Source: Malonomonas rubra (GTDB lineage Bacteria; Desulfobacterota; Desulfuromonadia; Desulfuromonadales; Geopsychrobacteraceae). Taken from it: a DNA stretch of 41,330 bases. A model generated the notes under the pieces. It ran no database searches and was not told where the DNA came from. It saw nothing but the letters and a program-made list of their open reading frames with translations. Shown piece by piece: positions 15,159 to 18,106 of this stretch. Where the stretch lies: contig NZ_QKAP01000033.1 of NCBI RefSeq assembly GCF_003247215.1, positions 1 through 41,330 on the forward strand, given 5' to 3'. Made by a program: the position numbers and the translations under genes. How positions within the stretch are numbered: position 1 is the stretch's first letter; each line of letters begins with the position of its first letter.

Positions 15159-16094
15159 ATGAGTGAATCACAATATGACGTCATCATCATTGGCGGCGGC
15201 CCGGCAGGTATGACCGCCGGCCTATATGCCTCCCGTGCCATGCTGAAAACCCTGATGCTAGAAAAAATGATCATGGGCGGTCAAATGATGACCACCACCA
15301 AGGTGGAAAACTGGCCCGGCTATCCTGGAGGAATCGACGGCCCGGAGTTGATGATGAAGTTCCAAGAACACTGTGTCGAGTTCGGCCTGGAAACCGGTTA
15401 CGGCGTGGTAGAAAAAATCATCGACAACGGCGACAGCAAAACGCTGATCGTCGATGGAAAGGAGCTTACCTGCCAAGCTGTGATCATCGCCACTGGGGTC
15501 ATTCCGCGTAAACTAGGCCTCGATGGTGAAGAAGGGCTGGTCGGTCGCGGTGTATCCTACTGTGCCACCTGCGACGGAGCCTTTTTCCGCGACGTGCCGA
15601 TCGCGGTGATCGGCGGCGGCGACACCGCTGCAGAAGAGGCCCTGTTTTTGACCAAGTTCGCCAGCAAGGTGATCATGGTCCACCGCCGTGACGAGTTACG
15701 CGCCACCAAGATTCTGCGCGACCGGATCGCCAAAAACGAGAAGATAGAAATAGCCTGGAACTCGGTGGTCGACAAGTTGCTCTTCGACAACACCGGTCTG
15801 ACCGGTGTGGTGCTGAAAGATACCCAAACCGGTGAAATTCGCGAAGTCACCTTGAGCGGAATATTCGTCGCCGTTGGCGTTAGCCCGACAACCAGCTTTC
15901 TCAATGGCCTGATCGAACTCAACGAAGCAGGCTACATCAAAGCTGGCGAGGACACCCACACCAACGCGCCCGGCATCTACGCCGCTGGCGATTGCCGGAC
16001 CAACATCCTCAAACAGGTTTCAACCGCAGTCGGCGACGGTGCTGTCGCCGCGATCATGGCGGAAAAGTATATTGAAGAACTGAAACATGCCTGA
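15159..16094 (+). CDS. trxB: thioredoxin reductase
   Basis: NADPH-dependent flavoprotein of 311 residues that reduces thioredoxin. It shows the FAD-binding IIIGGGPAGMTAGLYASRA, the redox-active CATC (Cys135, Cys138), the NADPH-binding VIGGGDTAAEEALFL with HRRDELRA, and the second FAD motif GIYAAGDC. AAGGAG eight bases before the ATG at 15159 decides the start over an ATG at 15138. Monocistronic as far as can be seen; the HRR motif indicates NADPH rather than NADH use. Length fits low-molecular-weight TrxB. Confidence 0.97.
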   Translation: MSESQYDVIIIGGGPAGMTAGLYASRAMLKTLMLEKMIMGGQMMTTTKVENWPGYPGGIDGPELMMKFQEHCVEFGLETGYGVVEKIIDNGDSKTLIVDGKELTCQAVIIATGVIPRKLGLDGEEGLVGRGVSYCATCDGAFFRDVPIAVIGGGDTAAEEALFLTKFASKVIMVHRRDELRATKILRDRIAKNEKIEIAWNSVVDKLLFDNTGLTGVVLKDTQTGEIREVTLSGIFVAVGVSPTTSFLNGLIELNEAGYIKAGEDTHTNAPGIYAAGDCRTNILKQVSTAVGDGAVAAIMAEKYIEELKHA

Positions 16095-16118: not shown

Positions 16119-16150
16119 GATGAAAGGGGCTCTGCAATGAGCCCTTCATC
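16119..16150 (+). terminator. possible terminator of trxB
   Basis: GATGAAAGGGGCTC, a six-base loop and GAGCCCTTCATC form a 12-pair stem with a two-base bulge, starting 25 bases after the trxB stop. No T-run follows, so efficiency is doubtful. Confidence 0.45.
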
Positions 16151-16153
16151 TGT

Positions 16154-16348
16154 TCAGGAGGGGGACAGATGCTCTCTCACCTGCATTAAGTTAGAACGAT
16201 AATAGGCCAAAACATCTGGTGTATAGCTTCGCTCTTTTGCCTCGGAATCTAAATATTCGATTTTAACCGGCTGTTCTTCAAAAAACCTTACGGCCAAATT
16301 GAAGTCGAGAAGAATATTGGAATTTTTCAGTTTAATCTTGAAACTTCC
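16154..16348 (-). pseudogene. remnant of a TnsA-like transposase endonuclease
   Basis: The minus-strand frame reads NILLDFNLAVRFFEEQPVKI, then EYLDSEAKERSYTPDVLAYY. The pattern 'EEQPVxIEY...YTPDxL' is characteristic of the TnsA N-terminal endonuclease domain of Tn7-like (heteromeric) transposons, where the Asp of the PD motif is catalytic. The N-terminal part is missing (in-frame TAG just upstream, at 16349-16351) and the frame ends after YYRSN at a TGA, far short of a complete TnsA of about 250 residues. It abuts a truncated comM on the other strand. Recognition is from motif memory, not a search. Confidence 0.7.
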
Positions 16349-16363
16349 CTATCTATCCGATAC

Positions 16364-16972
16364 GAATTCAAAAAGAACGTGCTGGAGATGTTGCGCCAGC
16401 CGCTTGAGGACGGTCGGATCAGCATCAGCCGGGCGGCGCTCAGCCTGACCTACCCGGCCGATTTCATGCTGGTGGCAGCGATGAACCCCTGCCCCTGCGG
16501 TTTTCTGGGGAACACCAACCAGAAGCATCCCTGCACCTGCACGCCGATGATGATCCAGCGCTACCGCAGTCGCCTGTCTGGGCCGCTGCTCGACCGGATC
16601 GACCTGCACATCGAGGTGCCGCGGGTACCGCACAAGGACCTGAGCGCAACAACCTCTGCCGAAAGCAGCCCCACCATTCGCGAACGGGTCAAACAGGCAC
16701 GCCATGTTCAGCGGGAGCGCCTGAACGAATTCGGCCTGCATACCAACTCACAGATGCAAAGTCGTCATATCGGCCGCTTCTGCCAGCTCGATGATGCCGG
16801 GGAGAAGCTGCTGGAACAGATCACCAGCCGCCTCGGCCTGTCGGCGCGCAGTTATACCCGTATCCTCAAGCTGTCGCGGACCATCGCCGATCTGGCCGGA
16901 CAACCGCGGATCGAGCGGCATCACCTGGCCGAAGCGGTTCAATACCGGGGTCTGGACCGAAAAACCTGTTAG
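16364..16972 (+). pseudogene. comM: 3' fragment of comM/yifB (Mg-chelatase-like AAA+ ATPase)
   Basis: About 202 residues corresponding to the C-terminal 40% of ComM/YifB, which normally has about 500 residues. Similarity begins abruptly at EFKKNVLEMLRQPLEDGRIS, the segment just after the Walker B Asp-Glu, and includes NPCPCGFLG, the sensor and arginine region LLDRIDLHIEVP, and the C-terminal helical domain to the stop. The Lon-like N-terminal domain, Walker A and Walker B are absent. Upstream in-frame codons (LSIRY) are unrelated. The only internal start is a GTG at 16379 without a ribosome site. ComM is a helicase for DNA integration in natural transformation, so that function is probably lost. 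Confidence 0.85.
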
Positions 16973-17117: not shown

Positions 17118-17636
17118 ATGAAAAAAATCACCGTACTTGTTATCTCCGCCCTGTTACTGTCCGCTGGCCTGCTGGTTGCGATGGGATACGAGGACCAACA
17201 GCTACACGCTTCCTGCAACTACTGCGGCATGAACCGCGTCAAATTCGGCCACAGCCGGATGTTGATCGAGTACGTCGATCAGAGCAGTGTCGGCACCTGC
17301 AGCCTGCATTGCGCAGCGGTCGAATTTGCGGTAACTATTGACAAAGACCTGCAAACGATCAAGGTTGCTGATTTCAACAGCAAAGAGCTGATCGATGCGG
17401 AAACAGCATCCTGGGTGATCGGCGGCGACAAACCGGGCGTGATGACCTCACGTGCCAAATGGGCTTTCAGTGACCAGGCGGCAGCGGAAAAGTTCGTCAA
17501 CAGCCACGGTGGTAACCTTGCCGACTTTGATCAGGTGATGAAAGCGACGTACGAAGATATGTACATGGATACCAAGAAGATCCGCAACAAGCGTAAAATG
17601 AAAAAAATGAACATGTCACACATGGAGCACAAGTAA
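17118..17636 (+). CDS. NosL-family protein with Met/His-rich tail
   Basis: A 172-residue exported protein beginning MKKITVLVISALLLSAGLLV, an N-terminal membrane or signal segment. CNYCGM (Cys33, Cys36, Met38) is the copper-binding motif of NosL, and a second Cys pattern (GTCSLHCAAVEF) follows at about 65-75, as in NosL-like proteins. The C-terminus is rich in Met, His and Lys (KKMNMSHMEHK), typical of extracytoplasmic copper-binding tails. I choose the ATG at 17118, eight bases after AGAGG; a longer frame from 17085 has no signal logic. It opens a seven-gene cluster with a second NosL, an ABC transporter and an SCO protein. Copper binding is inferred from family and residues. Confidence 0.8.
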   Translation: MKKITVLVISALLLSAGLLVAMGYEDQQLHASCNYCGMNRVKFGHSRMLIEYVDQSSVGTCSLHCAAVEFAVTIDKDLQTIKVADFNSKELIDAETASWVIGGDKPGVMTSRAKWAFSDQAAAEKFVNSHGGNLADFDQVMKATYEDMYMDTKKIRNKRKMKKMNMSHMEHK

Positions 17637-17641
17637 ATTTT

Positions 17642-18106
17642 ATGCGCATCCTGATTTATCTTTTACTCTGCCTTTTGCTCTTTTCCAGCAGCTGCTTTGC
17701 CAAACAGCCGCAGCAGCCGGACAAGAAAGAACGCTGCCCGGTTTGTGGGATGTTCATTTCGCCCTACCGTGACTGGATGGGAACCATTCTGTTCAAAGAT
17801 GATTCGCAACTGTTTTTCGACGGCGCCAAAGACCTGTTTCGTTATTATTTTTCCCTGCCGAACAAAAACGATTCCCGAACCCGCGACGATATCGCCGAGA
17901 TTTATCTGACAGATTACTACAGTGTGCGCCTGCTGCCGGTCAACCAGCTGTTCCTGGTGCTGGGCAGCGACGTCTCCGGCCCGATGGGACATGAGATGAT
18001 TCCTGTCACCGGAGAAGAGGCTGCTAAAACCTTCGCCAAAGATCATAACGGGCAGAAGATTATCTCCTTTGAGCAGCTGACCCCGCAGTTGATCCCGAAA
18101 GATTGA
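17642..18106 (+). CDS. nosL: NosL-type copper chaperone
   Basis: A 154-residue exported protein, hydrophobic at the N-terminus (LIYLLLCLLLFSSSCFA), possibly a lipoprotein at Cys18. The CPVCGMFI motif (Cys32, Cys35, Met37) followed by DWMGTILFKDDSQLFFDGAKDLF is typical of NosL, which supplies Cu(I) to nitrous oxide reductase in other bacteria. The gene starts five bases after the preceding NosL-like gene and its stop overlaps the next start (TGATG). No nosZ is present in the window, so the client may be elsewhere or different. Ribosome site is weak, suggesting translational coupling. Confidence 0.88.
   Translation: MRILIYLLLCLLLFSSSCFAKQPQQPDKKERCPVCGMFISPYRDWMGTILFKDDSQLFFDGAKDLFRYYFSLPNKNDSRTRDDIAEIYLTDYYSVRLLPVNQLFLVLGSDVSGPMGHEMIPVTGEEAAKTFAKDHNGQKIISFEQLTPQLIPKD

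Follow-up and report, generated by a model that had tools for sequence, protein, structure and literature searches.

A truncated comM gene in Malonomonas rubra as the probable deletion scar of a Tn7-like and a Tsy-type insertion

ComM, which functions in the recombination of transformed DNA (PMC10293859), is encoded by a gene that is the target of two kinds of transposon, and both the elements and their targeting of comM are already published (Faure 2023). Tn6022-type Tn7-like transposons are reported to target comM through TnsF/TniQ (PMC10293859), and Tsy is described as a tyrosine-recombinase transposon that targets the same gene (PMC10293859, Faure 2023). The attachment site given for Tsy lies at most 40 bp upstream of the insertion point and overlaps Walker B, and the end2 of ZooTsy, beside the 3′ part of comM, reads ...AATCCCAGTC (PMC10293859). 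In Acinetobacter, the AbaR island in comM is flanked by the 5-bp repeat accgc (PMC3691203).

We compared these systems with the comM locus in the window, by which we mean the whole 41,330-nucleotide stretch of Malonomonas rubra DNA analysed here. As described for Tn6022-type elements (PMC10293859), a tnsA remnant lies inside comM near Walker B, and relatives carry tnsA, tnsB, tnsC and tniQ in comM together with 5-bp duplications. In contrast to those elements, the window keeps only about 44 codons of tnsA; moreover, TnsF, expected beside tniQ, was unrecognised in the elements of two relatives (genomes G039 and G003), whose membership of the Tn6022 branch is thus only putative. With Tsy as published the locus shares the break just after Walker B and AATATTGG-type repeats plus TTCCC beside the comM 3′ part, and relatives have similar junctions, some of them with tyrosine recombinase, HTH, TnsF-like and GIY-YIG genes; unlike Tsy, the window has no terminal CCCAGT, about 9 bp extra and no Tsy genes. 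The likeness to AbaR (PMC3691203) is that of an insertion in comM with a 5-bp repeat, whereas in the window the element is gone, there are no resistance genes and comM itself is mostly deleted. Our preferred reading is that the locus is probably the deletion scar of a comM gene struck by a Tn7-like element of the Tn6022 type and, about 70 bp downstream, by a Tsy. The features on which this reading draws are the following, with positions in the window.

15159..16094, + strand: trxB-like gene, native upstream neighbour of comM (86% to G006, 82% to G002, 78% to G009)
16150..16177, + strand: residual comM 5′ end with the ribosome-binding site, the start codon (ATG, 16169) and the second and third codons (M L S), nearly the same as in G006
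16178..16309, - strand: tnsA piece of about 44 codons, truncated at both ends, with boundaries good to some 5-12 bp
16310..16363, + strand: sequence resembling Tsy end2, with AATATTGG, 21 bp on AATCTTGAAACTTCCC, then 14 bp, recognised from the junctions of relatives
16364..16972, + strand: comM 3′ part, 202 codons plus stop, with no intact start (Pfam Mg_chelatase, Mg_chelatase_C)
17118..18106, + strand: two genes, native downstream neighbours, in an order matching G003 and G007

Because the flanking genes match those around comM in relatives, the window contains the comM locus with its native flanks. Comparison with sister strains, suggested as a check in the first-pass annotation, showed trxB followed by an intact comM with no insert in the same-genus genomes G002, G006 and G009, unlike the window, and the nitrilase gene found upstream of trxB in the window occupies the same place in G006 and G009. 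On the other side, the comM 3′ part of G003 and G007 is followed by two genes, which we take to be nosL-like, and by an ABC permease, in the order seen in the window.

The N-terminal part of comM had been described as gone, which is correct for codons 4-316, as these were not found in the genome, but the start codon at 16169 and two further codons survive. This residual start (16150-16177) reads CTGTTCAGGAGGGGGACAG-ATG-CTC-TCT in the window and CTGTTCAGGAGGGGGGACAG-ATG-CTA-TCC in G006, and homology to comM ends beyond codon 3. A genome search with the missing part as a 316-aa query returned five weak matches in other long frames, the best of which had an E of 1.5e-5 and 30% over 82 residues. 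We give almost no weight to an assembly artefact, in which a mis-join in the 149-contig assembly would have placed foreign sequence between comM fragments: the genome is a draft with an estimated contamination of 3.75%, but both sides of the joint are neighbours within a single native locus, which retains the comM start, and the missing comM 5′ sequence did not turn up at another place in a genome scored 99.5% complete.

Homology to comM resumes at 16364 with EFKKNVLEMLRQPLEDG and extends to 16969 (Pfam Mg_chelatase, E 3.4e-33; Mg_chelatase_C, E 6.2e-34), with the stop at 16972 on the + strand. The match to TIGR00368 starts only at model position 312 of 499 and scores 228 bits against a cut-off of 362, and the 3′ part is 72-80% to the ComM of most relatives over 195-202 aa. 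As the earlier reading of this DNA had it, the similarity begins right after Walker B, at the E of EFKK that in relatives directly follows LFLDE(L/F)P, the Walker B region; in the intact comM of G006, 316 codons precede that E, of which about three are kept in the window. Codons 4-316 being absent, Walker A and Walker B are not both present and the AAA+ domain is incomplete, so that ComM function is presumably lost. The 3′ part shows no sign of long decay in its sequence, since it has no internal stop and its dN/dS is 0.09-0.21 against five relatives (0.04-0.19 among those relatives themselves). Relaxed selection on the 3′ part was considered as a clock and rejected, because dN/dS is not clearly raised and dS is mostly near or above 1, precluding dating.

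Between the two parts of comM, an open frame of 64 codons on the - strand (16154-16348) matched Pfam Tn7_TnsA-like_N with an E of 1.4e-5, over positions 3-38 of the 85 in this N-terminal domain and at 25.9 bits, 0.6 bits below the curated cut-off of 26.5; against NCBIfam TnsA_like, the E was 2.9e-4, far under the cut-off of that model. Alignment to full TnsA proteins gave 44% over 52 aa for G039, 58% over 40 aa for Aeromonas salmonicida and 33% over 40 aa for the same-genus G003, so the TnsA fragment announced in the first-pass annotation, and its match to TnsA proteins, are real. The similarity does not fill the frame: it ends near 16309, about 55 bp before comM, and below about 16178 the residues of the frame come from the comM ribosome-binding site and start codon read in reverse and contain no tnsA. 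Extension of the tnsA homology up to 16348 was considered less likely, as it needs a gap at a conserved motif and the stretch matches Tsy ends. The GC content of the piece is 40%, compared with 54% for the window, but this is weak proof of foreign origin, as 810 further stretches of 186 bp within the 41 kb are equally AT-rich.

Among 136 genomes of the order, the frame containing the tnsA piece matched only the genome of the window (G000) and G039, where the match adjoins that genome's own truncated comM. Wider searches with the piece found no match in plasmid records and one Aeromonas salmonicida locus in a scan of genome contigs, with no comM similarity in the fetched stretch around that tnsA, and a PDB sequence search with the G039 TnsA had no match at E 0.01. 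Judged by sequence, the piece is too short to be placed in the comM-targeting Tn7 branch, the Aeromonas TnsA being equally similar. No tnsB, tnsC or tniQ lies beside it in the window. In the whole genome, TnsB had no match, and the TnsA model found, besides the window, only an unconvincing match (E 0.97). The proposal that the element decayed by deletion thus agrees with the genome, in which searches turned up neither the comM 5′ part nor TnsB, TnsF or a convincing second TnsA.

Larger Tn7-like elements occupy comM in G003, G039 and G160, as expected from the claim that comM is a target of such elements, and in all three examined tnsA adjoins the comM 3′ part in the orientation seen in the window, with the comM 5′ part on the far side. 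Outward from the comM 3′ part, G039 carries tnsA, a TnsB-like transposase (Mu-transpos_C), TniB/tnsC and tniQ, and G003 carries the same series; in G160, the gene next to tnsA runs past the fetched stretch. The 5-bp target duplications, read by eye, are GGCGG (G039), GCAGC (G003) and GCGGC (G160), and the elements have imperfect inverted ends starting TGTC, with right ends of ...GACA in G003 and G160 and ...GTCA in G039. These elements interrupt comM in the GGG(S) codons, ahead of Walker B; the comM break in the window lies about 70 bp further downstream. Terminal repeats and a 5-bp duplication are absent from the window, the GGG(S) site and both Tn7-like ends being deleted. A search with a Tsy TnsF, which a divergent Tn6022 TnsF could escape, gave no match in G000, G003 or G039, and no TnsF gene was recognised by eye among the open frames of the G039 and G003 elements. 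Beyond tniQ, the G003 and G039 elements encode an N6_Mtase/Eco57I protein of 1014-1022 aa (L035, 14862-17903, - strand; L036, 5579-8644, - strand), a possible defence cargo.

The tnsA piece was said to abut comM directly, but 54 bp (16310-16363) intervene. This segment is AT-rich (GC 30%). Within it, 16313-16349 has the sequence AATATTGGAATTTTTCAGTTTAATCTTGAAACTTCCC, which 14 bp separate from comM. Its two repeats are spaced 21 bp apart, compared with 20-22 bp at the comM junctions that match a composite pattern, which was built from the other junctions at the spacing of the window, and its inner repeat continues into TTCCC. The composite matched the 54 bp with two mismatches; when up to three mismatches were allowed, the 3.13-Mb genome had no further match, and none at all to the reversed control. 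Its frequency was one in 200 simulated 41-kb sequences and three in 100,000 local shuffles of 63 bp. Across the fetched loci, which total 578 kb with overlaps counted, it had five hits, namely one each in the window, G159, G232 and G273 and a fifth, away from comM, in G263. The motif was, however, chosen only once the junctions had been inspected. Its strict inner form, AATATTGGANNTTCCCAGT, gave 10 matches at up to one mismatch, spread over 9 of 271 genomes; of these matches, 4 lie at comM junctions and 6 away from comM, compared with 3 matches for its reversed control (G046, G171, G266). The strict form does not match the window at that threshold. The CCCAGT terminus of Tsy end2 is absent from the 54 bp, the window contains no Tsy genes, and TnsF had no match in the genome. 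Taken together, the sequence strongly suggests that the 54 bp are a Tsy end2. Positions 16350-16358, between TTCCC and comM, are an addition of about 9 bp (TATCTATCC, including a TATC repeat) not seen in other junctions.

It is unlikely that one Tn6022-type element by itself accounts for the locus, with deletions flanking the tnsA piece and the 54 bp arising by chance or as degenerate tnsA coding sequence. In keeping with such a history, tnsA is the sole protein-level trace, the frame stays open to 16348 and the alignment with the G039 TnsA can be extended a few residues past 16309. However, the break in comM falls exactly at the Tsy-type junction, the composite motif is as rare in the shuffles and the genome as stated above, and a gap is needed to align the residues ahead of LLDF with TnsA.

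The position of the break is shared with relatives. In G045, G075, G159, G232, G245 and G273, six Tsy-type junctions drawn from 20 hand-picked genomes (G000 among them) of 277 and so not a census, comM resumes at or within about one codon of the position in the window; G141, with the same break position at a contig edge, was left out of the six. By eye, G245 has one AATATTG-type repeat beside comM and the other five have two, or a repeat and a degenerate copy, and at all six a CCAG or CCCAG terminus lies beside comM, the G232 junction reading AATATTGGAAAATACGGGGCAATATTGGAAGTTCCCAGTAT. The junctions of G045, G075 and G245 do not show up when the composite is scanned for strictly, and were identified from their position and by eye. 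In G232 and G045, tyrosine-recombinase and HTH genes (Pfam) are followed by a TnsF-like protein of about 600 aa with no Pfam match, the G045 copy having an internal stop, and G232 also has a GIY-YIG gene. Of 271 genomes, 7 had TnsF-like matches, including four of the six junction genomes (G045, G232, G245 and G273). We assign these elements to Tsy on the basis of their architecture and place.

Several observations concern Tsy-like sequences in other settings. In G073, a TnsF-like match lies within a 929-aa open frame (C6:15944-17134, - strand), possibly a fusion protein. Tsy-end-like motifs off comM were seen in L109 (G263), L106 (G215) and L111 (G245 C160); G215 and G245 C160 have identical sequence past the motif (ACCCCGATTTTTTGTAAAGG...), which may mark another element boundary.

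The main rival, itself improbable, is a Tsy alone that carried the tnsA fragment, this being the last piece of its cargo, with a single deletion from comM codon 3 into the fragment. Such a history would need just one insertion and one deletion, and the tnsA similarity does stop directly at the outer Tsy-like repeat. Against it, the fetched Tsy-type stretches L037 and L077-L084, which cover the cargo in part, contain no tnsA at E 0.01, and the tnsA piece is oriented as in the comM-borne Tn7-like elements (three of three).

The scar is probably composite, because the 54 bp resemble Tsy end2 and comM resumes at the Tsy-type rather than the Tn7-like position. The insertion scar of a Tn7-like element proposed in the first-pass annotation is therefore supported, by tnsA and by comM as target, but is not the whole story, given a break about 70 bp downstream at the Tsy-type position. 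In the composite history, the conserved GGG(S) codons ahead of Walker B would have received a Tn7-like element of the Tn6022 type, and a tyrosine-recombinase element, Tsy, would have entered comM some 70 bp further downstream, directly behind Walker B. The two could have arrived in either order, because the Walker B stretch remains between both sites. Deletions would have taken comM codons 4 to 316, nearly the whole Tn7-like element and all of Tsy but one end, leaving the comM start, the tnsA piece, Tsy end2 and the comM 3′ part in succession. That both elements occupied the same comM copy, in whichever order and with however many deletions, is something we infer. Against a composite origin, none of the genomes seen has the two elements together in a single comM, and the history requires at least two deletions in addition to two insertions. 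We give an even chance to the full account, in which two mechanistically unrelated transposons, reported to share a TnsF-type selector, were stacked about 70 bp apart in one comM copy that then collapsed by deletion.

The comM 5′ ends of L092 (G013), L093 (G040) and L094 (G070) show a third position at which comM is broken, the MNP(C) codons roughly 40 residues past Walker B, and a gene for a large serine recombinase of 497-501 aa (Pfam Resolvase and Recombinase) ends at the break. A (GGA/GTG)CCCCTTTACCAA-type motif occurs as an inverted copy at the comM 5′ break and at a comM 3′ break in G013 and G040; the motif was not seen in L094 (G070). G013 contains eight comM 3′ fragments, two of them with stops, over about 150 kb (C1:3770324-3919105; L042, L098), and G009 (L040) contains three or so. 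Those examined each begin at the same codons, next to an HTH gene that reads divergently and overlaps the CCCCTTTACCAA motif with its start; in G009, HipA-like genes follow. The series looks like repeated module capture at one site.

A literature search covering few subscription papers found no description of stacked Tn7-like and Tsy insertions, no report, among the matches listed and by title and abstract, of comM-targeted Tn7-like or Tsy elements in this bacterial group, and none of large serine recombinases in comM. For this group, the present data give exact comM insertion points for both Tn7-like and Tsy-type elements. They suggest that a Tn7-like element and a Tsy can strike the same gene copy, which makes exclusion or competition under a shared target testable; if the stacking is true, insertion of one element does not protect comM from the other. 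The locus also illustrates a lasting cost, in that the elements have decayed and comM remains lost. If the stacking reading is true, comM in this bacterial class would be a landing pad used repeatedly by three or more types of recombinase, counting as the third the large serine recombinases, which have their own site in the gene.
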